64,000 nucleotides of DNA from Blastococcus sp. TML/M2B. GTDB taxonomy: Bacteria > Actinomycetota > Actinomycetes > Mycobacteriales > Geodermatophilaceae. Positions 40,350-64,000 of this stretch are shown piece by piece. Location of the stretch: NCBI RefSeq assembly GCF_016612865.1, contig NZ_JAENZZ010000002.1, positions 930,001 to 994,000 on the forward strand, in the 5' to 3' direction. The translations under genes were made by a program, and so were the position numbers. Positions within the stretch are counted from its first letter, which is position 1; every line of letters starts with the position of its first letter. Below the pieces are notes generated by a model. The model was not told where the DNA came from, made no database searches, and was given only the letters and a program-made list of their open reading frames with translations.

Positions 40350-40382
40350 GAGGGGTGCGGAGACCAGGTCCCCGCACCCCTC
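40350..40382. terminator. hairpin, inverse copy of the one at 38644
   Basis: Stem GAGGGGTGCGGAGAC / GTCCCCGCACCCCTC with a CAG loop; flanking bases 40348-40349 and 40383-40384 extend the pairing to 17. Terminates the SRPBCC-like gene and marks the right edge of the ordinary chromosomal part. Confidence 0.65.
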
Positions 40383-40431
40383 TGTGCTCGTCACCTGGCG
40401 GTGACGTCGCGACTGGATCAGCTGTCGTCGG

Positions 40432-40683
40432 TCATCCAATGTCCGTCCAACGCCCACGTCGTGGGCTCGAACGGCGGCAGGCCCGCACCGATGGGGTGCG
40501 GGTGTGCCGTGGCGATGCTGCGCCGTTGGTGAAGTGCACGTCGATGGGTACCCGCAGCAAGGCGGGCTGGACATGACCGAGCTGCGCGGGCAGGCATGTC
40601 GCGGACGGCGCGGGCAGCCCCGGTCGGGGGTCGGGCTCCGGGCCGCAGGACGGGCAGCGGAACGCCGGGGCGGCGGTGTTCAT
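40432..40683 (-). CDS. small hypothetical protein with N-terminal CxxC
   Basis: 83 residues, opening MNTAAPAFRCPSCGPEP with a third cysteine further on. A good ribosome site GAGGAAAG lies 5 bases before the ATG, which is the main reason to call it. The rest is proline/arginine-rich and low in information. Could be non-coding. Confidence 0.3.
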   Translation of the reverse strand: MNTAAPAFRCPSCGPEPDPRPGLPAPSATCLPAQLGHVQPALLRVPIDVHFTNGAASPRHTRTPSVRACRRSSPRRGRWTDIG

Positions 40684-48050: not shown

Positions 48051-48521
48051 CGCAGCATCGTGCCCCACCCGGTCCTCCCCGGCCTCTCCTGACGCACCGT
48101 CGGTTCCGCCTTCCTGGATGCGGGAGTTCCGCCCGTTACGGTCCGCGCCATGGTCACCCCTCCCCCGCCGGACGTTCCCGAAGGCTGGCCGCGGCCGGCG
48201 TCCAGCGAGCTGGAGTACGCGCGAGAGGTGACGATGGAGGCACTTTCCGACGACACCGCCCGACCGGCCACCGAGCGACTCGGCAAGCACTACGACCCCG
48301 TCCGGCGAGGCGCCGGCACAACTTTCCTCGAACTGGCGCCCGTCGACCCGACCACCATCACCGCGGCCGACCTGCACGCCCTCACAGTGCTCAACGCCGG
48401 CGTTGACGCGTTGACCACACGGCGGCTGCTCAGCGACCCCGGCATCCGCGCGGACATCGAGCAGGGACTGGCCGGGCTGCCTTCTGACGCAGACCTCGCA
48501 ACGGCCGACCACACCACGTTC

Positions 48522-48551
48522 GGGACTGCCCAGACTTCAGTTGACTCGTCT
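48522..48551. repeat. IS3 element terminal inverted repeat (left)
   Basis: GGGACTGCCCAG followed by TTCAGTTGACTC; matches the other end at about 26 of 30 positions. Confidence 0.85.
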
Positions 48552-48563
48552 CGGTAGGGGCGG

Positions 48564-49427
48564 TCAGGCCGCGTGAGCGGTCTGGGTCAGTGTCTCGAAC
48601 TCGATAGGGGTCATGCGGCCGAGGGCGTCTTGGCGCCGGCGGCGGTGGTAGGTCTTCTCGATCCAGACCACGATCGCCAGTCGTAGTTCCTCGCGGGTGG
48701 TCCAGCGTTGTCGGTTGAGGACGTTCTTCTGCAGCAGGCTGAAGAAGGACTCCATGGCGGCGTTGTCAGCACACGCTCCGACTCGGCCCATCGAGCCGCG
48801 CAACTGGGCCTCGCGCAGAGCCCGGACGTAGGCGTGGGAACGGAACTGGCTGCCGCGGTCCGAGTGCATGATCGCGCCGACCGGGCCGCGCAGGGCAATG
48901 GCATTACGGAGCGCGTTGACCGCCAGCTCGGAGGTCATCCGGGCGTCGATGGAGTAGCCGACGATCCGCTTGGAGCTGGCGTCCTTGATCGCGCAGAGGT
49001 AGAGCTTGCCCTCGGCGGTGGGGTGTTCGGTGATGTCGGTCAGCCACAGCTGGTTGGGGCGCTCGGCGGTGAAGTCCCGGCGCACCAGGTCGTCGTGCAC
49101 CGGCGGTCCGGGCTTGCGGTTCAGGCCGCGCTTGCGGGAGTGCACCGACCACAGCCGCTGCGAGGTGCAGAGCCGGTTGACCCGGTTGCGGGAGGCCCGC
49201 AGCCCCTTGTCGGCGAGTTCGTCGGCGATGAACCGGTAGCCGAACTCCGGATCGTCGTGGTGGATGTCGATCGCGGCGTTGATCAGGTGCGCGTCGTCCC
49301 AGTCGCGCTGACTGACCGGGTTGGCCTGCCACTTGTAGAAGGCCTGCTTGGAGAAGCCGAGCACCCGGCAGGTCACCGCGACAGGGATCTTGTCGGCGGC
49401 GAGGTCTTGGACCAGCGGGTACATCAT
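48564..49427 (-). CDS. IS3-family transposase OrfB (DDE integrase domain)
   Basis: 287 residues. N-terminal helical region (VTCRVLGFSKQAFYKW), HTH_21-like segment, and an rve-type catalytic core with Asp in LWLTDITEH, Asp in IMHSDRGSQF and Glu in AMESFFSLLQKN. The catalytic triad is intact. Starts within orfA's stop (ATGA). A fused product may form by frameshifting around CCAAAATGATG, as in other IS3 elements, but this is inference. Confidence 0.92.
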   Translation of the reverse strand: MMYPLVQDLAADKIPVAVTCRVLGFSKQAFYKWQANPVSQRDWDDAHLINAAIDIHHDDPEFGYRFIADELADKGLRASRNRVNRLCTSQRLWSVHSRKRGLNRKPGPPVHDDLVRRDFTAERPNQLWLTDITEHPTAEGKLYLCAIKDASSKRIVGYSIDARMTSELAVNALRNAIALRGPVGAIMHSDRGSQFRSHAYVRALREAQLRGSMGRVGACADNAAMESFFSLLQKNVLNRQRWTTREELRLAIVVWIEKTYHRRRRQDALGRMTPIEFETLTQTAHAA

Positions 49428-49732
49428 TTTGGGAGGACGTCGCGGGCGAAGTACGCGGTCGCCCGGCGCAGAATCTCGTTCTCCTGCTCCAGCTGCTTGG
49501 CCCGCTTGCGCAGCTCCCGGTTCTCGGCTTCCAGGTCGCTGCCGGTGCTCGAGCCGGCCGGCGGCGAGGTCTTGGCGGCCAGGCCGTCGTCGCGGTCGGC
49601 GATCTTCAGCCAGCGTTGCAGGCAGGACTCGGAGATCCCGAAGCTCTTGGCAACCTGTGCGATCGACTGGTCGCCCTGCCGGGCCACCGCGATCACGTCA
49701 CGCCGGAACTCCTTGGGGAACGGCTTGGGCAC
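49424..49732 (-). CDS. IS3-family transposase OrfA (helix-turn-helix)
   Basis: 102 residues. Helix-turn-helix (KEFRRDVIAVARQGDQSIAQ, then KSFGISESCLQRWLK), followed by a leucine-zipper-like coil (LEAENRELRKRAKQLEQENE) that mediates dimerisation. Binds the IS ends. Overlaps orfB by four bases. Confidence 0.92.
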   Translation of the reverse strand: MPKPFPKEFRRDVIAVARQGDQSIAQVAKSFGISESCLQRWLKIADRDDGLAAKTSPPAGSSTGSDLEAENRELRKRAKQLEQENEILRRATAYFARDVLPK

Positions 49733-49799: not shown

Positions 49800-50159
49800 T
49801 TCGAGGCGATGGAGACCTTGGCGGGAGCGATTCACGGCGGTTGCTGCGACCCGTGGGTGGCCAAGCCCAACCCGTGGGTGACCTCAGCGAAGCTGTGCGC
49901 CCGCAAGCGCCCTCGACTGTTCCCGGTGCGCGACCGGGTGGTCTGCGAAGGGCTGGGGCTGTACGGCACCCCCATCCGGCGGTATGGCACCCGCCGGGTC
50001 GACTGGCAGGTGATCGCATTCCTGATGCGCGACGAGGCCATCGGCCGCCGCCTCGTCAAGCTCACCGAGCAGGTGAGGACCTCCCACGGCGTGCGTTGCG
50101 ATGATGTGCCACTGCGCGTACTCGACGTCGCCCTGTGGACCTGGCTGCGCCGCGACTGA

Positions 50160-52224: not shown

Positions 52225-52704
52225 TCACCACCCATGGATGCCGTACAACAGCGCGGCCATGACGGTGCCGCCCATGAACTGCTCCCCCGATAGGCAGCGG
52301 CTCCACGCCGACTCCGAGATGCCGAACGTGCGGCCGAGGCGGCGCCTGTCGCCGTGACGCCGGACAGCCTTGTAGCGCAAAACGAGATCGTGCTGCACAC
52401 GTGCGACGGCGGCGGACACCGGATCACCGCCCGGCGGAACAACACATTTCGCTTCCGGCGTACTGCCGAAGCCTCGTGGGATGTAGGCGCGCGGAGTCAG
52501 CGTGCGGCGGCGATCTAGACGGTTGGCACCCGGTCGATTCACGAGGGCAGTGGTGCCGGCCCGCGGGCAGCAGGCATTCGCCGCGGTCACCCGGTCGGGC
52601 GGGAAGTTGCCCAGCCATGGCCGGGCAGCTTCCTCGATCTCGATGCGCCGCCACACGGGCGGCACGTGCGCTTGGGGCCCCTCGCTGACGTGCAGCGACC
52701 CCAC
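52225..52704 (-). CDS. small protein with C-terminal helix-turn-helix-like region
   Basis: 159 residues from GTG 52704; a GTG at 52590 is an alternative start that would leave room for promoters. The C-terminal 60 residues (VQHDLVLRYKAVRRHGDRRR, LGRTFGISESAWSRCLSG, then FMGGTVMAALL) have the look of a lambda-repressor-like DNA-binding unit. Divergent from the E2-E1/transposition operon with only 16 bases between the outermost starts, so it is a candidate regulator of it. Confidence 0.6.
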   Translation of the reverse strand: MGSLHVSEGPQAHVPPVWRRIEIEEAARPWLGNFPPDRVTAANACCPRAGTTALVNRPGANRLDRRRTLTPRAYIPRGFGSTPEAKCVVPPGGDPVSAAVARVQHDLVLRYKAVRRHGDRRRLGRTFGISESAWSRCLSGEQFMGGTVMAALLYGIHGW

Positions 52705-52720
52705 TGAAGGGACGTATCCC

Positions 52721-53089
52721 GTGGACGATCAGTCCCCCGGCCCGAACAACCCCGACGCCAGCCCCGGCGAGGCGTCGCCCGCCGCCACCGGTTCCTTCTA
52801 CGCCCCCAGCGCCGGCGCCGAGGAGCCCAGCCCGCCGCAGGAGGCGGGTGAGGACGCGGACGGCGCCGCCGCGGAGGCCGCACCGGAGCCGCCGGAGGCT
52901 CCGACCGCCCCTGCGACGTCCCCGCCCCCGTCGGCGGGCGGGCCGGGACAGCGCCGGATCACCAGGTACACCACCACGTCGACGACGCGCACCGAGACGT
53001 CGACCGACGAGACGATCGTCGAGGACGTCCAGATGGCGCCGCCGGTATGGGCGGCGTCGTCGGGCGAGCACCCGCGGCCAGTGGGCTGA
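52721..53089 (+). CDS. low-complexity small protein heading the E2-E1/transposition operon
   Basis: 122 residues from GTG 52721, with GAAGGGA upstream. Residues 1-78 are rich in Pro, Ala, Gly and Glu and look disordered. Residues 79-110 (RRITRYTTTSTTRTETSTDE, then TIVEDVQ) alternate in a way that suggests beta strands. The protein ends in HPRPVG, a C-terminal glycine. Its stop overlaps the ATG of the E2-E1 fusion (TGATG). Position suggests a substrate or modifier for the conjugation enzyme, but the ordered part is short for a beta-grasp fold. No family recognised. Confidence 0.55.
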   Translation: MDDQSPGPNNPDASPGEASPAATGSFYAPSAGAEEPSPPQEAGEDADGAAAEAAPEPPEAPTAPATSPPPSAGGPGQRRITRYTTTSTTRTETSTDETIVEDVQMAPPVWAASSGEHPRPVG

Positions 53090-54960
53090 TGAGCGCGCCG
53101 GTGGCGGCCGGTGCCGCCCTCACGCCGTGGTGGATTGCCTACCCGCAGGTGTGGGAGCTGGAGCGGAAGGAGCTGGCCGCCGCCGGCGCGACCTGGACAC
53201 CTCTGGCCTTCGACCACGTCGCCGCCGGCCGGAGCGACGGCGTCGCGGCGCCGTCCCGGGGGCTGATGGTCAGCTGGCCGCACCCGGCGCCGCAGCCGGG
53301 TGACCCCGACCGGCTCGAGCTCTCCGTCCACTACCCGGCTCAGTTCCCGTGGTGGCCGCCGACGGTGCTGCTGCGCGAGCCCCTCGCCGGGCTGCACCGC
53401 CATCGGGACCCGATCATGGGGACGCTGTGCCTGCTCGGGGGCGAGCAGGAGTGGCTGCCCTCCACCACCCTGGCCGCACTGCTCACCACTCAGCTGCCGC
53501 TGTTGCTCGCCGCCGGGCGCACGAGCGGTGCGGATCCGGCGACGCTGGCGCTGGAGACCGGCGCGGAGCCGGTGTGGACGCGCCTGATGCCGGCCCGCGG
53601 CGGGCTGCTGGCCGACTCGGGGTGCCTGCCGCCGGCCGGCGTGCCCGGCGGCCTGGCGGCCCTGGCCGTGATCGGTGCCCTCCCACCGGTGCACGCCCTG
53701 GTGCAGCTGCTAGACGGGGACGGGGAGTTGCTGGCCGCGAGCGACCTGTACGCCGGCCTGGAGTCGGTGCAGATCCCATGGGTGCGGCTCACCGACCTGC
53801 CGCCGGGCCGCCTGATCGCGGCCGACCTGTGGCGACGAGGCTGGGCCCAGCTGGCCGCCACGGTGCCCACGGCCACCTACCTCCCCCGGCTGCAGGCACT
53901 GCTTGTGCTGGTGCCGTCCGAGGCCGGCGATCGTCGGGCCTGGGAGGAGTACCTGCTGCTCACCCTGCGCGCCGCCGCGCGGACCGGTGAACGCCCAGCC
54001 GCTGGCGACCCTCCACCGCCGGGACAACTGCCACTGTTTCCGGTCACCGAGCTCTGGCCCGCCGACCCGAACGCCGCAGAAACCGCAGACACCGCTCCGA
54101 CCGAACAAGCGAGCGCCCGGGCGCGGCTGCGGGTGACGGTCCACCGCAGTCACGCCATCGGCCGAGACGACCTCGCCGCCCGGCTACCGGGCAACACCGG
54201 GCAGCAGCTCTCCGGCGCCACGGTCACCGTCGTCGGCGTGGGCGCGGTCGGCGGCCCGATCGCGCTGGAGCTAGCACGTGCTGGCGTCGGCATCATCCAC
54301 CTTGTCGATGGGGACCGGCACGAGGCGGCCACGGGCTCCCGGCAGATTCCCGCCGTCGCGGACGCGGGTGAGTACAAGGCGCTCGCCGTCGCGCGGCGCA
54401 TCCTCGAGCACAACCCCCACGTCGAGCTCACCTGCGGCTTCCGCCACCTCGGCCGCGACGACGGCCAGGAACTCCCCCGGCTGACCGGGAGCGATCTGGT
54501 CGTTGACGCGGCCGCGAACCCCACCGTTTCCCGTTTCCTCGCCGCGCACCTGCGGCGGACCGGCACGCCCCTGCTGATCGCCTCTGCCACTGCTGGCGGG
54601 TGGGGCGGGGCGATCGTGGCGCAACCCGCGGCCGGCGGCGGTTGTTGGGAGTGCGCCCAGCTGCACCGTGCCGAGCGCACGCTGCCGTGGCCTCCCGCCG
54701 AGGACGGCGCGTGGCTGACCCCGGTGGGATGTTCGGAGGCCACGTTCGTCGGCGGCGCGTTCGATCTCGGTGAGGTTGCGCTGCAGGCGGTGCGCACCGG
54801 ACTGGCCATCCTCACCGCCCCTGCGGACACGGTGCGGCGATCGCCGTACGGGGACGTGCAGGTGTTGTCGCTACGCGGGCGTCGGGGGCCGCAGCAGCCG
54901 CGCTGGCAGTCCCGCCGCCTGACTGTGCACCCCGACTGCGCCCTTCACGCGCTGCGGTGA
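53089..54960 (+). CDS. ubiquitin-conjugation-like E2-E1 (ThiF) fusion protein
   Basis: 623 residues. N-terminal E2-like domain (about 15-145): VHYPAQFPWWPPTVLLREP, then HRHRDPIMGTLCLL and EWLPSTTLAALL follow the E2 pattern, with the active-site cysteine likely Cys114. A linker domain (about 150-345) is unassigned. The C-terminal E1/ThiF adenylating domain (about 360-600) has the nucleotide motif VVGVGAVGGP (381-390), DGDRHE, the CWEC pair (Cys519/522) and the block GCSEATFVGGAFDL (Cys548). Such proteins adenylate and transfer a small modifier, as in CBASS Cap2, but no cyclase gene is near. GTGA overlap with the next gene. Confidence 0.85.
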   Translation: MSAPVAAGAALTPWWIAYPQVWELERKELAAAGATWTPLAFDHVAAGRSDGVAAPSRGLMVSWPHPAPQPGDPDRLELSVHYPAQFPWWPPTVLLREPLAGLHRHRDPIMGTLCLLGGEQEWLPSTTLAALLTTQLPLLLAAGRTSGADPATLALETGAEPVWTRLMPARGGLLADSGCLPPAGVPGGLAALAVIGALPPVHALVQLLDGDGELLAASDLYAGLESVQIPWVRLTDLPPGRLIAADLWRRGWAQLAATVPTATYLPRLQALLVLVPSEAGDRRAWEEYLLLTLRAAARTGERPAAGDPPPPGQLPLFPVTELWPADPNAAETADTAPTEQASARARLRVTVHRSHAIGRDDLAARLPGNTGQQLSGATVTVVGVGAVGGPIALELARAGVGIIHLVDGDRHEAATGSRQIPAVADAGEYKALAVARRILEHNPHVELTCGFRHLGRDDGQELPRLTGSDLVVDAAANPTVSRFLAAHLRRTGTPLLIASATAGGWGGAIVAQPAAGGGCWECAQLHRAERTLPWPPAEDGAWLTPVGCSEATFVGGAFDLGEVALQAVRTGLAILTAPADTVRRSPYGDVQVLSLRGRRGPQQPRWQSRRLTVHPDCALHALR

Positions 54961-55637
54961 GCACAGCCGCGAGGGCAATCACTGGGCGGCGGATCCTCGG
55001 CCGGGCGCAGTACCGGGCCGCACTGCACCGAGGTACCGCCCCCGCCCCCGGCCAGATCTGGATCGCCGGGCGACTGACGACGGCTGCGGGCACCGAACGG
55101 TGCCCGCACATGTTCTACGACGACGAGGAACTGGCCCGCTCCAGTCAGGTGGGCGTGCTCGTGCACGCCACCATCGGCACCCTGGCCGCGCGCACCCGCA
55201 CGCCCACGGCGGCGGAGCTGCGCATCGCCGCCGACCGCGCGATGCACATGTTCGCCCCGATCGAGGCACGCGCCCACCGGCAGAACATCGCCTCGCTGAC
55301 CGGCAGCTACTTCTGGCACCTGCTGCCCCCTCCCGGCTGGCTGTTCGCCGGCACCGAGCTGGACGTGGGTGTCGGCCGGATCGACCTGCTCTGGCGCGAC
55401 CGCGACGACCGGGTGCTGATCGACGAGATCAAGGCCGGCAGCCCCCGCGGGATCTCGCTGGCTCGCACCAGCGCGCAGGTCACCCGCTACGGCGACTGCG
55501 CAACCCGGCTGTGGCCGGACCAGTTCATCGGCATCCGGCTGCTCAGCCTCACCGAGCCGCACCGCTCGGTGTTCGTGCGCTCCGACGGCGGCCGGATGCC
55601 CCTGTTCCACACCGACGTCGTGACCAGAAGGAAGTGA
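54957..55637 (+). CDS. PD-(D/E)XK nuclease, possible TnsA-type partner of the transposase
   Basis: 226 residues. RecB/Cas4-like nuclease core: His70 (VGVLVHATIG), Glu134, Asp143 in VGRIDLLW, and Glu157-Ile-Lys159 in LIDEIKAGS, followed by the helix ARTSAQVTRYGD. In Tn7 the TnsA nuclease with this fold cuts the 5' ends; here the gene lies directly before a TnsB-like transposase, so a similar role is inferred. Start and stop overlap both neighbours by four bases. Confidence 0.75.
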   Translation: MSTAARAITGRRILGRAQYRAALHRGTAPAPGQIWIAGRLTTAAGTERCPHMFYDDEELARSSQVGVLVHATIGTLAARTRTPTAAELRIAADRAMHMFAPIEARAHRQNIASLTGSYFWHLLPPPGWLFAGTELDVGVGRIDLLWRDRDDRVLIDEIKAGSPRGISLARTSAQVTRYGDCATRLWPDQFIGIRLLSLTEPHRSVFVRSDGGRMPLFHTDVVTRRK

Positions 55638-57166
55638 GCTCCGTGAACACCCGCGAGCCGAAGAAGAACACCAACAAGCCCAAGTACATGCGCACTGCCC
55701 GGGACCGCGCGGTCGACGCGCTGATGGAGCTGGCCAAGACGCGACCGGTGACGCCGGACGACGTGCGCCGGGAGGCGGCGAAGGTCGGCTACAGCGCCCG
55801 GCAGGTTCAGCGCGCCCTGGACGCGAAGACGCAGGGCCGGTCGCTGCCGGGTGCGGCGCGGTTCGCGGTGACCGAGGCGGTCATCACCGCGGTGTTCCTG
55901 TGCTGCGGCGGACTGGCGCAGGCCTACCAGCTGCTCGCGGGCAGCATGTCGCTGCCCAGCGAGAGCACCTTCCGCCGGTGCGTGCGCGCGGCCATGGGCA
56001 GCCAGATCGAGTACGCCCGCGGCGGGTCGGCCGGCTACCGGGACCACCAGCTGTACCTGCGCAACGACTACCCGCACCGGATGCACAGCGTGCTGCTCGA
56101 CCACACCGAGCTGCCCATCTTCGTCGTGCCGCGCGGGTACAAGACGGCGGTCAAGCCGTGGATCACCGCGGTCATGGACGGCTCCACCCGCTACGTCCTG
56201 TCCTGGGTGGTCACCTTCGGGCGGCCCACCGCCGAGGAGGTCCGGGCGTCGCTGGTGCAGGCGATGACGCTGCGCGTCGCCGGGGACGGCGAGACCATCG
56301 TCGGCGGCAGGCCGATGAAGGCGGTGTGGGACCGCGGCCTGGAGTTCCTGGCCACCCTCATCACCGAGTCGTGCCTGCGGCTGCAGGTCATGCCGATCGC
56401 GTTGGCCGCATACTCCCCGCACTTGAAGGGCCGTCTCGAACGGTTCTGGCTCACCCTCAAGCGCAGCCTGCTTCCGCCGCTGCCCGGCTACAGCGAGGGC
56501 CCGCACGACCTGCGCGGTCAGCACGCCATCGCCGACAACGCCCTCGGCGAGGACGAGTTCCTGGTGCTGCTCGATGAGTGGATCACCGACTACAACACCA
56601 ACCACGTCGTCAGCACCATGAAGATGACGCCGCTGCAGGCCTGGAAGGCCGACGGCACCCCGCTGGAGGAGATCGCCCCCGAGCAGCTCTGGCACGACTT
56701 CCTGACCTCCAAGGACCGCTGCAAGGTCAGCAAGAACGGCATCCGCTGGGACACCATCGACTGGGTCGCCCCCGAGCTGGTCGACGTCATCGGCCGGCAC
56801 GTCGAAATCCGGCACCTCCCCCACGACCGGTCCTTCATCGAAGTGTTCCTCAACGGCGAGCACCTGTGCACCGCCATTCCGGTGCAGGAGCTGTCCGACG
56901 AGGAGCGGCAGGCCACCATCGAACGCCGGCAGGCCGCCCGCGCCCAGGCGCAGAAGCGCTTCACTACCGCCAACCGGATGCGCGTCAAGAACCACCCCGG
57001 CACCTCCAAGATTCGCAAGGACAAGGACGGCAAGCGCCAGGTCATCGGCACCTCCGATGACCTGCTGTCCGGTGGTGACGACGCGCTCAAGCAGCTCCTC
57101 GGCCAGCTCGACGCGGACGGCGCCGACGGCCTCGGCGGCGTTCACGCGCAGCTGCGGATCATCTGA
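55634..57166 (+). CDS. TnsB/Mu-type DDE transposase
   Basis: 510 residues. N-terminal helix-turn-helix (about 20-75), rve catalytic core with Asp156 (LLDHTELPIFV), Asp233 (VWDRGLEFLA) and Glu269 (KGRLERFW). Spacing between the second Asp and Glu is exactly 35 residues, as in retroviral-type integrases. A C-terminal Mu-transposase-like beta domain (about 350-430) and a basic tail (RRQAARAQAQKRFTTANRMR) follow. All catalytic residues are present, so probably active. GTG 55634 overlaps the upstream stop; GTG 55643 is an alternative. TGATG overlap with the ATPase gene. Confidence 0.87.
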   Translation: MSSVNTREPKKNTNKPKYMRTARDRAVDALMELAKTRPVTPDDVRREAAKVGYSARQVQRALDAKTQGRSLPGAARFAVTEAVITAVFLCCGGLAQAYQLLAGSMSLPSESTFRRCVRAAMGSQIEYARGGSAGYRDHQLYLRNDYPHRMHSVLLDHTELPIFVVPRGYKTAVKPWITAVMDGSTRYVLSWVVTFGRPTAEEVRASLVQAMTLRVAGDGETIVGGRPMKAVWDRGLEFLATLITESCLRLQVMPIALAAYSPHLKGRLERFWLTLKRSLLPPLPGYSEGPHDLRGQHAIADNALGEDEFLVLLDEWITDYNTNHVVSTMKMTPLQAWKADGTPLEEIAPEQLWHDFLTSKDRCKVSKNGIRWDTIDWVAPELVDVIGRHVEIRHLPHDRSFIEVFLNGEHLCTAIPVQELSDEERQATIERRQAARAQAQKRFTTANRMRVKNHPGTSKIRKDKDGKRQVIGTSDDLLSGGDDALKQLLGQLDADGADGLGGVHAQLRII

Positions 57167-57918
57167 TGGCCCTCGCCGGACTCGAGGAGGCGCGAGTGGT
57201 CCGCACCCCCGCCTTCGCCCGCATCGCAGACACCGCCGCCCTGGTGGTCCCCCGCCACGAGATCGCCCTCATCCACGGGCCGCACTCCACCGGCAAGCGC
57301 ACCGCCCTCAACACCTGGCTCGCCGGCCAGGAGCTGCCCGTGGCCAGGCTGACGCTCGCGGGCAACGAAAGCGGCCGCAAGCTGCTGCAACTGCTGCACG
57401 ACCAGGTCATCGCCCCCGACGACCTGCCCGAACGGGACCTGCAGGACGACCTCGTTGAGGCCCTCGCCGCGCAGCCCCGGATCGTCGTCGTCGAGCACAC
57501 CGAGCGGTGCACCGCCGAGGCCGCCGGGCAGATCGAGTGGCTGCACGGCCGCCCCGGACAACAGGCCGCCTGGTTCCTCCTCGGCGGCCCGCAGGCGGCG
57601 AAAGCGATCGGCCGCGACCCGCTGCTGTGGGACGCCATCTGCGCCACCGTCGAAGTCGCTCCCCTGACCGATGAGGTTCTGCTGCGCGCCCTGCGGGGCA
57701 TGCACGACCTGTTCGCCGGCGCCGACACCGACCTGCTCACCGAAATCGACACCCGTGTGTGCCACGGCGTCCTCGGCCGCTGGTCGCGGTTCCTGCAGCA
57801 CGCCATCCACCTTCGCGACCAGGCCGTCGCCCTCGGACGCGAGCGCCCCGTTCTGGACCGCCCGTTCGCGAAGGCGGTGCTGGCGTCCATGCCGGCCACC
57901 GTGCTGAAGAAGCGCTGA
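57166..57918 (+). CDS. TnsC/TniB-type AAA ATPase
   Basis: 250 residues. Walker A GPHSTGKRT at residues 38-46; Walker B RIVVVEHTERC, acidic residue at about 110; and a sensor-like stretch AAWFLLGGPQAAKAIG. Position directly after a TnsB-type gene, size and motifs match TniB/TnsC/MuB, the ATP-dependent target-selection proteins that activate the transposase. The start overlaps the transposase stop. Confidence 0.8.
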   Translation: MALAGLEEARVVRTPAFARIADTAALVVPRHEIALIHGPHSTGKRTALNTWLAGQELPVARLTLAGNESGRKLLQLLHDQVIAPDDLPERDLQDDLVEALAAQPRIVVVEHTERCTAEAAGQIEWLHGRPGQQAAWFLLGGPQAAKAIGRDPLLWDAICATVEVAPLTDEVLLRALRGMHDLFAGADTDLLTEIDTRVCHGVLGRWSRFLQHAIHLRDQAVALGRERPVLDRPFAKAVLASMPATVLKKR

Positions 57919-57921
57919 CCG

Positions 57922-59091
57922 ATGTCCCCCACCATCCTCAGCGTCGACGTCACCGGCGCCCCGGTGACCATCCCGGCCCATCCGCCGCTGGTCACCGGGG
58001 CCCTGTGGGCCGAGATCCGCCCCGACCTGCGCCGGCTGCACGTGCTCGCTGGCGACCTGCTCGCCGCCCTCGGCAAACGCCGCGACCTGGCCGGCACCGG
58101 CCGTAACGAACAAGACGACGTCCGCCACGCCCTGGCCTGGATGTGCGCACACGACATCGCCGACGTCGTCCTCACCGAGGCCCAGCGGCTGCACCCGGTG
58201 CTGCTGAACAGCCTGGTGCGGCTCACCGACACCGCAGGGGCGCGGCTGTGGCTCCTGCACCGGCCGCCGCGCAGCGACACCTTCGTGCGCGCACTGGGAC
58301 GCCGCCGCAGCGCCGCCACCGCCGACCTCGCCGCACCCAGCGCCGCACCCGCGCCGCACCTCCCCGTGCCGGTCGACCTGCCCGCCGTCCCCGCCGCGGA
58401 GTTCACCACCTTCCGCAGCGCCTACCGGCGCACCCTCAGCGCCGCCGACGCCGCCCGCGTTGACGCCGTCTTCAGCACCACCGCCCGCGACTGCACACAG
58501 GGCCTGCGCGCGCACGGCGCTACCCGGGGCACCGTCGCCGACCTGCTCTACGGCCTGCTCAACCCCGCGCCGCCGGACGCACAGCTCACCGTCCAACTGC
58601 GCGCACTTCAGGCCGCCGCCTGGCACCACGACCTCTACGTCAAGATCGACCTCGCCCGGCTGCTGCACGGCGAGGAACGCCCCCGCATCCCCGCCGCCGT
58701 CGCCGACGCCGCCCTGGCCCCCTACCGCCAGCCCTACCGGCCCATCACCGTCATGCTCACCCGCAACAGCTGGGACCTCGCCAGCATCGGAGCGATCCGC
58801 ATCAGCGACGCCGCCGGCGACGGGGCCACCCTCGCAACCACCACCGGCCGAGTCTCGTTCGGCCCGCACACCGCCCGCGCCGTGCGCGCCCAGGTGCAGT
58901 TGCGCCGGGCTGCCGGCGCGGAGGACAACGACCCGCTGCTGCCACACAGCCCCAAGGCCCTGGCCAAGGCCCTCACCGAGGCGGCCACCGACCTCGGCCT
59001 CCACGTCCACGGCCGCCGCGCCGAACGCACCCGCGACCACACCGAAGGCGCGCTGCGGGCCCTCGGCGTCACCGTGGAGGCCCTTCCGTGA
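57922..59091 (+). CDS. ATPase-like protein of the transposition operon, no visible Walker A
   Basis: 389 residues, no family recognised. Around residues 65-115, HALAWMCAHDIADVVLTEAQ, RLHPVLLNSLVRLTD and RLWLLHRPP resemble the Walker B/sensor half of TniB-like ATPases (DExQ-like TEAQ), but no P loop is visible. The C-terminal 200 residues are helical (TVADLLYGLLNPAPPDAQLT, LARLLHGEERPRIPAAVADA). It could be a divergent second ATPase or a TniQ/TnsD-position protein that couples the ATPase to a target. Begins 3 bases after the ATPase and overlaps the next gene by four. Confidence 0.6.
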   Translation: MSPTILSVDVTGAPVTIPAHPPLVTGALWAEIRPDLRRLHVLAGDLLAALGKRRDLAGTGRNEQDDVRHALAWMCAHDIADVVLTEAQRLHPVLLNSLVRLTDTAGARLWLLHRPPRSDTFVRALGRRRSAATADLAAPSAAPAPHLPVPVDLPAVPAAEFTTFRSAYRRTLSAADAARVDAVFSTTARDCTQGLRAHGATRGTVADLLYGLLNPAPPDAQLTVQLRALQAAAWHHDLYVKIDLARLLHGEERPRIPAAVADAALAPYRQPYRPITVMLTRNSWDLASIGAIRISDAAGDGATLATTTGRVSFGPHTARAVRAQVQLRRAAGAEDNDPLLPHSPKALAKALTEAATDLGLHVHGRRAERTRDHTEGALRALGVTVEALP

Positions 59092-59714
59092 TCGACGTGA
59101 ACGCAGTGCGCCGGCTGCGCACCGATCGCGGGCTGTCCCAGCGCCGGCTCGCCGCCGCCATCGGCGTCGACCCGCTCACCGTCAAACGCCTCGAGGCCGG
59201 CGCCGACCCCGGCGACCTGCCCCTGCGCGTCATCGAACGCCTCGCGCACACCCTCGCGGCACCACTGCAGGACCTGCTGCTGCCCCAGCACCGGGCAGGC
59301 GAGGACACGCAGCTGGGCCCGGCCGTGGGCGCCGCACTGCTCGCCCACGGCCGCACCACCGTCACCGCCCTCGCGACCGCACTGCACGCCACCGTCGCGG
59401 AGGTCACCGAAGCCATCGAGGCGCTGAACTACCAGCTGCCCGACGCCGGGATCGCGGTCTCCCGCCACCACGACGACGTCTGGCTTGTCCCGCACGTGCA
59501 CACGCCTGCGGACGTCGCAGCTGACCGCCCGCTCACCCTCGCCGAAGCCCGCCTGCTGCGCCGCATCCAGCGCGGAGAAGATGTCCGCCGCAAGCTGAGC
59601 CGCACCGGCCGTGAACTCACCCTGCCCGCCCTGCACCGCCGCGGCCTCGTCGAGGACCACGGCGACGGCCCCGTCCTCGCCGCGCACGTCGCTACCTCTC
59701 TGGAGACTGCGTGA
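59088..59714 (+). CDS. XRE-type helix-turn-helix protein
   Basis: 208 residues. N-terminal XRE domain (AVRRLRTDRGLSQRRLAAAI, GVDPLTVKRLEAGADPGDLP), then a second winged-helix-like region (about 80-190, GPAVGAALLAHGRTTVTALA, LTLAEARLLRRIQRG). Could regulate the operon or bind element ends or targets. GTG start overlaps the upstream stop. Last gene of the seven-gene operon. Confidence 0.8.
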   Translation: MIDVNAVRRLRTDRGLSQRRLAAAIGVDPLTVKRLEAGADPGDLPLRVIERLAHTLAAPLQDLLLPQHRAGEDTQLGPAVGAALLAHGRTTVTALATALHATVAEVTEAIEALNYQLPDAGIAVSRHHDDVWLVPHVHTPADVAADRPLTLAEARLLRRIQRGEDVRRKLSRTGRELTLPALHRRGLVEDHGDGPVLAAHVATSLETA

Positions 59715-59845: not shown

Positions 59846-60463
59846 TCAGTGCGTCGACGGTCCGTTCGAGACACGTGCAGGCCAACGCACCAGCGCTGCA
59901 CCGAACGGTGCATACCCCTGCGCTGCATGCGGGCCGGCAAATCGGAGACGTCCGGGCAACAGATCCACCTCGGCGGCCCCGTCAACTACCCACCGGTTCC
60001 ACCAGCGGGTACACACGCTGGCCGGCAGCAGCGCGATGGTGTCGTGGCCGTCGTCGGCCGCCTGAACCATCCGCTCGAGGAACCGCGGGAGCAACCGCGC
60101 GGAGTACGGGGGGTTGCACCAGATCGATGTTCCGGGCTCCACGAAGTCCGACCAGCGGACCAAGGTCGCGTCCCTGCGGCTCTCCACGGGATTCGTCGGC
60201 CCCAGCCAACTGCCGGGCACGAGCGTCGACTCCGCGCACGCTGCGGCGTCCAACCCCAGGTCGTACACCGACACCCGCTCCCTGATCTCCGGCGGCGTCC
60301 ACCACTGCGACCAGTCCGGCCCCGCCTGCAGGCGCTGCTCCCGGCGGCGCCGGCGCGCCCACATCGCCTGCCGGCAGCGCTGCCCGCAGTACTCCCGCGG
60401 CCGACCCGTCTCCGCCTGCGCCAGCGGTTCCCGACACCCCACGCACACACGACGCCGACCCAC
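59846..60463 (-). CDS. phage-type DNA N6-adenine methyltransferase with zinc-finger N-terminus
   Basis: 205 residues from GTG 60463. N-terminal CVGCREPL and REYCGQRC give a four-cysteine zinc knuckle. Then comes the phage Dam-like domain: SQWWTPPEIRERVSVYDLGL and the catalytic motif CNPPYSARLLPRFLERM. Modifies adenine in DNA; small solitary enzymes like this often ride on phages and mobile elements. Convergent with the transposition operon (131-base gap). Confidence 0.75.
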   Translation of the reverse strand: MGRRRVCVGCREPLAQAETGRPREYCGQRCRQAMWARRRRREQRLQAGPDWSQWWTPPEIRERVSVYDLGLDAAACAESTLVPGSWLGPTNPVESRRDATLVRWSDFVEPGTSIWCNPPYSARLLPRFLERMVQAADDGHDTIALLPASVCTRWWNRWVVDGAAEVDLLPGRLRFAGPHAAQGYAPFGAALVRWPARVSNGPSTH

Positions 60464-60793
60464 ATTCGCAGCTTCGTTCCGTCGACGTGCGCATCGACGG
60501 AACACACCCGACCGGAACCCAATCCGTGATCCGACCGTGACTGGCTTGGTCCGCCGGAAGCGCCTCGGTCCGGCAGCGCACATGGCGGGGAATGCGTTGG
60601 GGCCGGCGATGCGCCCGCGGCCAGCCCCCTGCGGGCTCTCGCTAGGCGCAACTGCCGCAGCGCCGGGCAACGGAGTCCGCGCATCCCGCGGGCGAGGTCG
60701 AGGACCCACCGTCTGGTGAAGGTGCGCGCCCCGAAGGCAGCCGGGCGCACCCACCATGCTGCTGCCGCGCGTGTGGTGGCGGGCGGCAGCTGC
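60464..60793. other. 330-base region with a palindrome, no gene seen
   Basis: Upstream of the methyltransferase and downstream of the restriction gene (both minus strand). Contains the palindrome at 60476-60503 and otherwise no supported gene. Confidence 0.4.
60476..60503. repeat. 28-base palindrome
   Basis: GTTCCGTCGA / TCGACGGAAC, perfect 10-bp arms around CGTGCGCA, 13 bases upstream of the methyltransferase start. Resembles the palindrome at 50181. Confidence 0.65.
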
Positions 60794-63343
60794 TCAGCGG
60801 CGCGCGGCGCGCGACCGAGTCAGGGCGTCGGGCAAGGTCCGCGCCTCGTTCACCACGTGCTGGGGAACGAGCAGGTACTGCCACTCACCGTGCTGGCCGT
60901 CGTCGGTGACGTACCGGGCCCACTGCTCGGCTGCCGCGCGCTTGCTCTGTACGACCGGGTCGTCGACGCGGTCGTCGCCCTTGACCTCGAGCAGGTAGTG
61001 GACGCTGGAGATCTCGGCGTGGAAGTCCGGGCTGTAGCGGCCGCCCTCCCACTCCACGACGAACTCGCCGCGCTGGATGCGCGCCCACACGGTGACCTCG
61101 GCGGCACTGTCGAGCAGGTTGGCGAACCTCCGCTCGGTCTCGCTGTCGAACCAGTTCAGCGGGTGCAGGGCCCGCTCACTCCACGTGGAGTAGGCGACCC
61201 CGCGGCTGAACTTCCCGTACCGGTTGGGCTCCACCGGCCGGCCGTTGGTCCGCGTAGGACCGAACGCCGTGGTGCTCACGCTCCGGTCGACCACCTCGGG
61301 GGCAGCCCGGTACTCCTTCTGCAACATCCGCTGTACCGCGGTCAGGGTCTGGTTGACGTACGGCGCCACGTTGTCGGCGCCTCCGGCGGCGTCGACCAAG
61401 ACGGTCGCGAGCCGCTTGGCCGCGTTGAGGTCGGAGCGACGCGCGGAGTCGATGAACTCGACGGCGAGGATGCCGTTCTTCAGCGAGCCGACCACGTCGC
61501 CGTACGGCAGCTCGGGGGTGCTCGCGTCGATGATGTCGGCGGCGTCGGCCGGCACGAGACGCAGCCCAGTCGGACTGCTGGGGTCCTCGACCACATCCAA
61601 ACGCTTGCGGGCCAAGCTTCCACCGCCTGCGCCGGCGACCTGCTTGCCGATGTCGGCGAGGAGGTCCTCGTCGACGTCGGAGAGCGCGAACGACCGAGCG
61701 ACGACGGTGCGCTCCACCTTCGGCATGACGATCTCGCGTGCGGCGGTGATCGGCGCAGCGACGCTCTCGGCCTGGGCGTTCGCGTCCCGCAGCCGTTCAT
61801 CCAGCGTGGTAATGGTTGACCCGCCAGTGGGTTCGTCGGCCGGTGAGACCGGAACCGGGGTGACGGCGTCGCTGCCGTCCACACCCGCCGCCGCGGGGGC
61901 GACATCGGTGTCCGCCGCGGGCTGCGTCGCCTCTGCCGGTGTCAGTTCCGCAGAGCGCTCAGCGGTCGGTCCGTCGGTCGGAGGCGCAGGTTCGTCGACG
62001 TCTGGAGCGGCAGGGTCGTCGCCGGTGGGGGCATCGACGACGCGGGTCACGTTCGGCACGTCGGTCGGCACCGGGACGACGCGGCGCTCGACCAGGCCCT
62101 CCAGGAGGACGCCAGCTCGCGAAAGCAGCGCGTCGTATCGCTCGTGCGAGAGCACCTCGACGGTGTCGAGCAGCTCGACGCCGGTGTAAGAGCCCCACGG
62201 CAGCCGGAGGCCGCGGCCGAGGGTCTGCTCCGTCAGGACGTCGGAGATCGACGGACGCAGGGAGCAGATGACGTAGATGTTCTTGACGTCCCACCCCTCC
62301 TTCAGCATGTCGACGCTCACGATGACCCTGACTGGGCTGTCGGGCTCCTCCACGGCCCCCAGCCGCGCCAGGGCGTCGTCGGCAGCCTTGCTGTGGACGG
62401 TGAGAACGCGCTGCTCGTAGTCGTGCTCGTACAGGCCGGGGCGGCGAAGCACCGCGGCGACTGCCTGCGCGGAGTCGATGGTGTCGGCCACGACGAACAT
62501 GACGGCGTGGATGCGTGGAAGGCCGTGAGCGTCGGAGTACGCGTCAGCCGCCTTCTGCTTCGCGTGCAGGAGGGAGACGCCGTCGCGCAGGCGCACCTCG
62601 ACGCTGTCCGCGGTGTCTGTCCGACCGACGAGCACCGGGGTCTTGACGTACTTGTCGGCGATGGCCCTGGCCAGCGGGTAGCGGTAGACGATCTTCGACA
62701 GGTCCGACTTCGCCGGCGTGGCCGTCAGCCCGACGAGTGCCAGCGGGTCCAGGTCTCGGATGGCTGCGGAGAACGACGCCGCTTCCTCGGAGTACACGTG
62801 GTGCTCGTCGGCGATGACGACCAGGTCTGGCCGCGACTTCAGGTAGGCGTAAAGGTCTTCGCCGAGCCACTCCTGGAACTTGCGGGTGCGGCGCGTGACC
62901 TTGTCCGGCTTCGTCAGCGCATGGACGGTGAACACGAAGAGCTTGACGGTGTCCTCGTCGCCCAGCGCGGTGGCCACGTCTCCGGTGTTGAAGTTGTCGA
63001 CCGTGACGATGGTCGGACGGGTGGTCATCCCGCCGAGCACCGACTTCTTGTGTCCCTCGGTGAAGTTGTTGACCGTCTTGTCCAGGATGGTGCGCCCCGG
63101 GGTCACCACAAGGACGTTGCGGACACCGGACTCGGCCAGGTACTCGACGAGACCGGCGGCCAGGTAGGTCTTGCCGACGGCGGTAGCCAGATCGCACACG
63201 GCCTCCGTCGAGGCCCCGGCTGCGGCGTCGATGTGCTTGGCAACGGCGGCCAGAGCCTCGGCGTTGGGCACCCGCAGGTCCAAGCGCGCGGCGACGTCGT
63301 CGATGAGGGCCTGATCGAAGGGCACACTGAGGTGGTCGCTCAT
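60794..63343 (-). CDS. res: type III restriction enzyme Res subunit
   Basis: 849 residues. Superfamily 2 helicase-translocase: ATAVGKT (53-59), ADEHH (178-182), LTATPAKSD, SVDMLKEGWDVKN, TLGRGLRLPWG. An acidic, low-complexity stretch (about 430-500) follows. The C-terminal nuclease domain has Asp773 (YSPDF) and Glu786-Val-Lys788 (LLEVKG). Cuts unmodified DNA after ATP-driven contact with a second site. Start overlaps the Mod gene stop (ATGA). All key motifs are present. Confidence 0.9.
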   Translation of the reverse strand: MSDHLSVPFDQALIDDVAARLDLRVPNAEALAAVAKHIDAAAGASTEAVCDLATAVGKTYLAAGLVEYLAESGVRNVLVVTPGRTILDKTVNNFTEGHKKSVLGGMTTRPTIVTVDNFNTGDVATALGDEDTVKLFVFTVHALTKPDKVTRRTRKFQEWLGEDLYAYLKSRPDLVVIADEHHVYSEEAASFSAAIRDLDPLALVGLTATPAKSDLSKIVYRYPLARAIADKYVKTPVLVGRTDTADSVEVRLRDGVSLLHAKQKAADAYSDAHGLPRIHAVMFVVADTIDSAQAVAAVLRRPGLYEHDYEQRVLTVHSKAADDALARLGAVEEPDSPVRVIVSVDMLKEGWDVKNIYVICSLRPSISDVLTEQTLGRGLRLPWGSYTGVELLDTVEVLSHERYDALLSRAGVLLEGLVERRVVPVPTDVPNVTRVVDAPTGDDPAAPDVDEPAPPTDGPTAERSAELTPAEATQPAADTDVAPAAAGVDGSDAVTPVPVSPADEPTGGSTITTLDERLRDANAQAESVAAPITAAREIVMPKVERTVVARSFALSDVDEDLLADIGKQVAGAGGGSLARKRLDVVEDPSSPTGLRLVPADAADIIDASTPELPYGDVVGSLKNGILAVEFIDSARRSDLNAAKRLATVLVDAAGGADNVAPYVNQTLTAVQRMLQKEYRAAPEVVDRSVSTTAFGPTRTNGRPVEPNRYGKFSRGVAYSTWSERALHPLNWFDSETERRFANLLDSAAEVTVWARIQRGEFVVEWEGGRYSPDFHAEISSVHYLLEVKGDDRVDDPVVQSKRAAAEQWARYVTDDGQHGEWQYLLVPQHVVNEARTLPDALTRSRAARR

Positions 63344-64000
63344 GCCGTGTCACCGTCCGGGGTGGAAGTCAGGGAAACCAGCTGGCTGGGGAGGATGCCG
63401 CGGCGCGCGAGGTCGCGCGGCACCTTCCGGACCTTCGAGCCGCCCCTGCGGGCCGCGAGCAGCTCCTCGGCACCGGGCTCGATGGCCTGGGCCACCACCA
63501 GGAGGGTCTCGCGGTCGGCGAGCTTGGAGAGCAGCAACTCGGCCACGCCGGCGGTCAGCATGCCGTCCAGCACCGCGAGCCGGCTGCGACCCCGTCGGCC
63601 GGTGAACGGCCCGTCGGGCTCGTACTCATAGCGCACCTGCGCACAAATGGCGCGAGCGAGCTCACCGCCGACCGCCCAGTCGGCGAGGTACAGATCGCCG
63701 TCCTCGTCGGCCTCGAACATGCTCGAGGCGACGCGTACGAGACGGAACCCGCCGCCGCCCGCCCACGCTGCCGTGCCGGTCACCCCTCCGGCGTCCTCGC
63801 CCTTGACCACCTTCTCCAGGCGCGGCCGCACGAACGTGTCGATGTTGCTCTCCGACAGCTCCACGGTGACGAAGCGGCGGCCCATCTTGTGCGCGACCGC
63901 CGCCGTCGTGCCGGAACCGGCGAAGCAGTCGAGCACGATGTCGCCTGGGTCGGAGGCGATGTGGATGATCTGTTCCATCAGCCGCTCGGGCTTCGGTGTC
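63340..64000 (-). CDS. mod: type III DNA methyltransferase Mod subunit, N-terminal part beyond window
   Basis: The last 220 or so residues. They open with TPKPERLMEQIIHIAS and SAM-binding motif I in VLDCFAGSGTTAAVAHKMGR. In beta-class methyltransferases this motif lies C-terminal to the catalytic DPPY, which would be upstream, outside the window. Recognises the target and methylates adenine for the paired Res. The gene continues past 64000. Confidence 0.9.
   Translation of the reverse strand, partial: TPKPERLMEQIIHIASDPGDIVLDCFAGSGTTAAVAHKMGRRFVTVELSESNIDTFVRPRLEKVVKGEDAGGVTGTAAWAGGGGFRLVRVASSMFEADEDGDLYLADWAVGGELARAICAQVRYEYEPDGPFTGRRGRSRLAVLDGMLTAGVAELLLSKLADRETLLVVAQAIEPGAEELLAARRGGSKVRKVPRDLARRGILPSQLVSLTSTPDGDTA

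Follow-up and report, generated by a model that had tools for sequence, protein, structure and literature searches.

A seven-gene block in Blastococcus

The window analysed here is a stretch of 64,000 nucleotides from the 4.1 Mb genome of Blastococcus sp. TML/M2B (contig NZ_JAENZZ010000002.1, positions 930,001 to 994,000 of the forward strand). It contains a block of seven genes (52721-59714) in which a small low-complexity open reading frame (ORF) and a ubiquitin-type E2-E1 fusion gene precede the transposition genes of a Tn7-like element. ORF calling and translation placed all seven plus-strand ORFs at these coordinates. The initial annotation, made from the sequence alone, had described seven such genes joined by six tight junctions, and both points were verified: at five of the junctions neighbouring genes share 1 or 4 bases, and a gap of 3 bases separates TnsC from P6. 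The genes are as follows.

52721..53089, plus strand: low-complexity protein, the proposed modifier; 122 residues, ends GEHPRPVG
53089..54960, plus strand: Cap2-like E2-E1 fusion; 623 residues, with E2 Cys114, presumed E1 Cys548 (CSxxT) and C519/C522/C617
54957..55637, plus strand: TnsA-like PD-(D/E)XK endonuclease with RIDL...DEIK; its GTG start (54957) overlaps the stop codon of E2-E1, with a possible later ATG at 55110
55634..57166, plus strand: TnsB-like D-D-35-E transposase, from Pfam and motif
57166..57918, plus strand: TnsC/MuB-like AAA+ ATPase, from Walker A (GPHSTGKR) and profile search
57922..59091, plus strand: P6, conserved fourth transposition gene and candidate target-selection partner
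59088..59714, plus strand: XRE-type helix-turn-helix (HTH) protein, last gene of the block and candidate reader of the nrdJ 3' end

The Pfam matches in the block were ThiF (1.7e-22), PDDEXK_1 (1e-5), Mu-transpos_C (3.9e-9), rve (3.4e-4) and HTH_31 (1.4e-8), in agreement with the E2-E1 fusion, nuclease, transposase and XRE protein of the initial annotation. The catalytic residues of TnsB are D156, D233 and E269, with 35 residues separating the last two, and the nuclease motif of TnsA (RIDL/DEIK) lies at 141/156. The TnsC profile matches MuB (3.4e-14) and ShTnsC (1.1e-10), as expected from its earlier description as a TniB/TnsC-type ATPase. P6 had been called ATPase-like, a label that we drop because it gave no significant match in Pfam or profile searches; its AlphaFold model, with a mean predicted local distance difference test (pLDDT) score of 42, was too poor for a fold search. 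Neither P6 nor XRE has a Pfam or NCBIfam match to TniQ/TnsD. TnsA lies beside TnsB, TnsB carries both D-D-35-E and Mu-transpos_C, and a TnsC/MuB-type AAA+ ATPase is present. Together the last five genes (TnsA-TnsB-TnsC-P6-XRE) make up the core of a Tn7-like transposon. The proteins in the TnsA position of two related loci, G326 (L040 9998-10651) and G381 (L041 8237-8854), lack the E-x-K part of the motif in the alignment.

The E2-E1 fusion enzyme

The best solved structure found by the E2-E1 profile was Cap2 (7TO3, 8e-23), over profile positions 289-483, which is the E1 part. The E2 profile alone matches human UBE2L3 (1.7e-6) and others, and the PADLOC E1-E2 model matches the fusion with 3e-29. 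All 14 aligned E2 domains have His105 and Cys114, which upholds the E2-type cysteine recognised initially. Cys548, Cys519, Cys522 and Cys617 are invariant in all 16 aligned proteins, the row of Blastococcus sp. KM273128 being an E1 piece. We take Cys548 to be the E1 cysteine from its conservation and the CTxxT motif. The protein is thus Cap2-like, an N-terminal E2 with its cysteine being fused to a C-terminal E1 with its presumed cysteine.

A search of the family (E <= 1e-15) gave matches in 13 of 112 genomes, of which eight carry E2-E1 (one of them split) and five match in the ThiF part only. One further E2-E1 genome, G855, was found among 296 phylum genomes. Among the matches listed from 296 class genomes, all but the window's own are partial and lie in or around the ThiF part. 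Another 364 class genomes gave no match, in a set that held no known positive and so shows little. Viral contigs, scanned with TnsB, E2-E1 and two E2-E1 alignments, yielded no relative. E2-E1 relatives lie on plasmids, several of them typed conjugative, and 10 of 14 plasmid places have an annotated JAB gene next to E2-E1. On four plasmids, two of Sinorhizobium and two of Sphingobium (L104, L105, L110, L111), toxin-antitoxin-type RES/Xre genes stand divergently just upstream of the peptide and E2-E1 pair.

A peptide with a Val-Gly tail

At 23 of 23 loci, from Actinomycetota, Alphaproteobacteria and Bacteroidota, a small low-complexity and mostly proline-rich ORF lies directly before the E2-E1 gene. 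These loci are 14 places in 13 plasmid records and nine genome loci; 35 plasmid records matched and 13 were examined, the listed ones among the other 22 being MoeB matches over 26% of the query. Twenty peptides end in RPVG, one in RQVG (Indioceanicola), one in KHVG (an NGR234 locus) and one in RPVGQQ (Hymenobacter). By fixed rules, 22 of the 23 end in VG, 20 in PVG, and 18 combine VG with 8 or more prolines among their last 40 residues. The corresponding counts for ORFs upstream of 408 control genes were 2, 1 and 0; the controls are genes with a coding score of at least 40, away from locus edges, outside loci L058/L059 and other than E2-E1 genes. Among ThiF-family controls, a VG-type ending occurred in 1 of 16 and was not proline-rich (4 of 20 loci were dropped for want of an assignable gene). 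The ORF is annotated at only one of the 14 plasmid places (Hymenobacter), in a table that its makers call incomplete.

The peptides are of two kinds. Those of the Blastococcus type (the window, KM273128, G350 and G311) have about 103-122 residues, share a C-terminal stretch and all end in GEHPRPVG. More distant E2-E1 genes are preceded by short proline-rich peptides of 40-59 residues. The window peptide has no lysine, no cysteine and 10% large hydrophobic residues; across 20 peptides, proline makes up 15-48% and ILMVFWY 4-12%, with no cysteine, and lysine is missing from the four Blastococcus-type peptides and that of Iamia. Of eight peptides tested, none matched a Pfam family or convincingly matched an NCBIfam family (one weak low-complexity match). 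The low hydrophobicity and the lack of a family match argue against a beta-grasp fold, as far as composition can tell.

Because these ORFs stop at the E2-E1 start or close to it, in many cases with a stop/start overlap, they might be leader or regulatory peptides that govern E2-E1 translation rather than modifiers. We regard this as improbable. The spacing to E2-E1 varies from -1 to +9 bases, with 35 (Iamia) and 85 bases (NXT3) to annotated starts (the starts used were partly set by hand, and the Iamia point is not a start codon), yet the Val-Gly tail is kept. Its codons vary: in the 20 loci checked all four valine codons and three glycine codons are used. Conservation of the tail only as overlapping DNA was rejected on this variation of synonymous codons. 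ORF lengths of 40-122 residues and the use of a C-terminal glycine by E1 enzymes also speak against a leader function. So does the Hymenobacter peptide (L108 3818-3991), which runs two residues past the glycine and adjoins a JAB gene; its PVGQQ ending looks like a precursor that needs trimming, as if by the adjacent JAB.

The precedent of Cap2 and cGAS (PMC10097602) leads us to propose that the peptide is the modifier of the E2-E1 enzyme. The E1 domain would adenylate the C-terminal glycine of the PVG tail, and the peptide would be held as a thioester on Cys548, handed to Cys114 of the E2 domain and joined by the E2 to an amine on a target. The initial annotation had suggested the 122-residue protein as a substrate to try. 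This was right in spirit: that protein is the likely substrate.

Place of the pair in the transposon

TnsB relatives were found in 16 of the 112 family genomes, mostly beside TnsA-, TnsC- and P6-like genes and often XRE-like genes, and a genome from another family has the same five core genes. When 397 order and 396 phylum genomes were searched with TnsB (E <= 1e-40), two loci were added, G588 and G908, both without E2-E1. A contig scan with the TnsB alignment gave one locus, that of Blastococcus sp. KM273128 (G313), which is of the same genus as the genome carrying the window. It has all seven genes in the same order, an outcome that the initial annotation had asked to be looked for in other genomes. 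Its proteins match those of the window at 74% (TnsA), 76% (TnsB), 81% (TnsC), 70% (P6) and 69% (XRE).

The E2-E1 gene is present at two of 18 related TnsB loci read and absent from the other 16 by tblastn, a count that leaves out a weak match in G360 and a second weak one in G296. Three further plasmid TnsB loci also lack it by tblastn, L024 being apparently the same plasmid as G588. The pair also occurs in G350 and G311, two family genomes without any TnsB match; its neighbours there include an integrase-like gene (weak Pfam match) and another of no recognised family. The product of the latter, 489-495 residues without a Pfam family, is paired with the integrase-like protein in both (L094 10633-12120 in G350; L095 5155-6624 in G311) and is possibly a transposase. 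One more gene accompanies the pair in all four Blastococcus-type modules:

52225..52704, minus strand: divergent gene upstream of the pair, kept in the four Blastococcus-type modules by tblastn; possibly an HTH protein

The HTH hint comes from a weak match of the G311 relative only. With 16 of 18 TnsB loci lacking E2-E1 and the pair occurring in genomes without TnsB, the pair is a separable module. Its order is retained in a second element with different cargo, which argues for a lasting place before tnsA. Two simple accounts were rejected on these grounds: E2-E1 as a standard Tn7 gene, as only 2 of 18 TnsB loci carry it, and chance neighbourhood of E2-E1 and tns genes, as the second element retains the order.

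A working part in transposition is another possibility, in which the peptide, conjugated to TnsABC, P6 or a host factor, would switch transposition or choose targets. The same order before tnsA in two elements with differing cargo (type III restriction-modification (RM) versus Wadjet) is in its favour. So is the possible overlap of the E2-E1 stop with the tnsA start, as both elements have a GTG in the TnsA frame that overlaps this stop (GTGA). Later TnsA starts are possible: the overlap requires the GTG at 54957, the gene finder chose the ATG at 55110 instead, and conservation of TnsA with KM273128 begins only at residue 39. The 16 of 18 TnsB loci without E2-E1, the pair without a TnsB match in G350 and G311, and a frameshift in the KM273128 E2-E1 copy all stand against this account, which we hold to be unlikely. 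A role in transposition is possible but is the weaker reading. The initial annotation had suggested that protein modification may control transposition, target choice or a defence function, and the first two are not supported. It had also stated that its case would fail if TnsB-TnsC pairs normally lack the E2-E1 gene, or if the genes adjoin only by chance; the first is largely what we found, and the second does not hold, as the order is kept in KM273128.

The ratio of nonsynonymous to synonymous differences (pN/pS) of E2-E1 is 0.53-0.65, close to that of the tns block (0.35-0.59). Between the two elements, pS is 0.43-0.51 for E2-E1, against 0.28-0.35 for tnsA, tnsB, tnsC and P6 and 0.43 for XRE. 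E2-E1 may evolve faster or may have a partly separate history.

Transposon ends and the nrdJ site

Comparison of both flanks placed the left end of the window element at 40423 and the right end at 72117 in window numbering, a length of 31,695 bp. The exact ends and target duplication that the initial annotation had wanted determined are therefore in hand. Its coordinates hold for the transposition core and fall short of the whole transposon, which spans 40423 to beyond the window. The termini are TGT...ACA, and a 5-bp duplication, TCAGC, flanks the element at the nrdJ stop codon.

40418..40422: left-hand copy of TCAGC; its right-hand counterpart adjoins the nrdJ stop codon beyond the window (72118 in window numbering)
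40423..40446, plus strand: left end of the transposon, TGTCGTCGGTCATCCAATGTCC..., matching the right end in inverted orientation at 16/24 positions

The KM273128 element (19,337 bp) has the identical TCAGC duplication, TGT...ACA ends and 16/24 matching terminal positions. In both elements a strict site, GGYCA..AATGTCC, occurs in 1-2 copies per end and nowhere inside. The TGT...ACA ends, repeats and 5-bp duplication fit a Tn7-like transposon, with the sites predicted to be TnsB sites.

We take nrdJ, named from its sequence, to be the gene of a B12-dependent ribonucleotide reductase; in the window genome it lies outside the window. At nine of the 18 TnsB loci read, nrdJ is within the fetched stretch and the repeat arrays finish at its stop codon. 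One related element that ends there belongs to another family. The transposon is site-specific and inserts at the nrdJ stop codon in Blastococcus and relatives. In two genomes of the same genus (G302, G315), nrdJ is followed by a terminator-like repeat without the transposon-end array. A similar repeat lies just left of the window element (about 40350-40383), as expected if insertion displaced it. Five other genomes (G301, G304, G306, G312, G316; L069-L072, L074) have array-like ends at nrdJ and no TnsB match at E <= 0.001, so that these are remnants or other transposons use the site too. The nrdJ site seems to attract several elements or to retain remnants. The nrdJ of the window genome (L059 16221-18100) is in two frames, with the shift about 130 residues before its end, from an error or a true frameshift; it is a single frame in several other genomes. 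In term searches, 'nrdJ' and 'ribonucleotide' were absent from one Tn7 survey (PMC8649781) and 'ribonucleo' from a second (PMC10293859).

Cargo and a possible defence role

The other cargo is type III RM in the window element and Wadjet genes with an AAA protein in KM273128. The former was identified as follows.

60794..63343, minus strand: type III restriction (Res) subunit, by family match
63340..63978, minus strand: part of a type III Mod methyltransferase, which extends beyond the window end (L059 7440-8612)

Res/Mod-like pairs that by eye resemble the type III pair of the window lie in or next to L040, L043, L044, L048, L050 and L053 and appear to be recurrent cargo, the window pair (60794-63978) being the one matched to families. 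A Dam-family gene (Pfam) is found at 59846-60757 and one similar by eye in G311 (L095 142-798), both near the module. A gene at 48150-48557 and 49857-50159 appears interrupted by an IS3-like pair (48564-49732); longer relatives, of about 241 residues by eye, are at L040 17155-17880, L043 16573-17301 and L094 12297-13022.

This cargo bears on a rival account, in which the pair is common anti-phage cargo placed before tnsA by chance and the peptide is the conjugated defence signal. Tn7-like elements often bear defence genes (PMC8649781), the adjacent cargo is type III RM or Wadjet, the relatives lie on plasmids of which several are typed conjugative, and Cap2 is a defence enzyme (PMC10097602). 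Set against this are the lack of an effector or sensor gene recognised with the pair and its persistence beside tnsA while other cargo turns over. We give this account about an even chance. Defence or element fitness, and not the transposition reaction, is the most likely role of the module, a preference that comes from the mobile context, the defence-rich cargo and the link to Cap2.

Interpretation and relation to known systems

We are fairly confident that a Tn7-like transposon captured a two-gene module, a C-terminal-glycine peptide and a Cap2-like E2-E1, which lies ahead of tnsA and seems to belong to its operon, with which it would be transcribed. With a probability of roughly 0.6, the module represents a new class of ubiquitin-style conjugation in bacteria, in which a disordered low-complexity peptide ending in PVG serves as the modifier for a Cap2-like E2-E1 without CD-NTase (cGAS/DncV-like nucleotidyltransferase) or beta-grasp protein. 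It would be spread by plasmids, other mobile DNA and, at the head of the transposition operon, the Blastococcus Tn7-like transposon.

Several observations weigh against this interpretation. The 23 loci hold 18 distinct 40-residue tails, which fall into 15 groups when tails with at most 4/40 differences are pooled. The four Blastococcus-type peptides exceed the others in length and contain only 4-5 prolines among their last 40 residues, so that their likeness to the short ones is mainly in place and tail. The pN/pS of the window-type peptide is 0.96, with conservation confined to the C-terminal part. The AlphaFold model of E2-E1 (mean pLDDT 39) was too poor for a fold search, and no JAB match was found among the window operon genes. 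The KM273128 E2-E1 is split by the frameshift at a G run in a draft assembly, which may be an assembly error. The higher pS of E2-E1 leaves a shared history with the tns block not proven.

Among the closest known systems is type II CBASS (cyclic oligonucleotide-based antiphage signaling system), in which Cap2 acts with a CD-NTase/cGAS; in common are the one-polypeptide E2-E1 fusion and the E2 and E1 cysteines. The Cap2 partner ends in glycine or alanine without a beta-grasp (PMC10097602, PMC11153139), and the window peptide likewise ends in glycine. The partner here, unlike in the Cap2 system, is a low-complexity peptide of 40-122 residues and not a cyclase. The adjacent CD-NTase and the JAB (Cap3) of type II CBASS were not recognised beside the window pair or in its operon; a nucleotidyltransferase match was absent from the peptide, the divergent gene and tnsA, the remainder of the element not having been scanned.

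Iyer et al. (2006) described operon types 6b and 6c with an E2+E1 protein, often a JAB, on plasmids and elements like integrative and conjugative elements; row 6b lists NGR234a and an Arthrobacter species ('Asp.'), with a pol-beta nucleotidyltransferase as the partner (PMC1779556). In the main text of that paper, 'Proline' occurs once, unrelated to a modifier. In contrast to row 6b, no nucleotidyltransferase is annotated near E2-E1 in the fetched stretches of NGR234 and Arthrobacter FB24, and the peptide ORF precedes E2-E1. Bil/Bub and other bacterial ubiquitin-like systems have E1, E2 and often JAB, with a glycine-ending beta-grasp ubiquitin-like modifier. They share with the present loci an E1/E2 operon and a glycine-ending modifier, whereas the peptides here look too poor in hydrophobic residues for a beta-grasp. 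Pup is a disordered small protein that ends in GGE/GGQ and is joined via its C terminus by PafA. Our peptides are likewise small and probably disordered, and C-terminal joining is proposed, but with E1-E2 rather than PafA and a PVG ending.

Like Tn7 and Tn7-like transposons (PMC8649781), the element has TnsA, TnsB and TnsC, duplicates 5 bp of its target, sits where a conserved gene ends and bears defence cargo. Unlike them, it uses the nrdJ site, has no TniQ/TnsD match, carries P6 and XRE after TnsC and has the E2-E1 pair upstream of tnsA. No description of E2-E1 with a Tn7-type operon, or of a proline-rich modifier, was recognised in the open-licence PubMed Central literature searched, in line with the initial annotation, which knew of no described element of this kind.

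The transposon adds to the Tn7-like elements a site-specific family that inserts at nrdJ and is joined to an unusual module. Cyclase-free E2-E1(-JAB) operons have had no obvious substrate, and the linked peptide with its near-invariant Val-Gly tail offers one. If this is true, ubiquitin-style conjugation would need no folded modifier.

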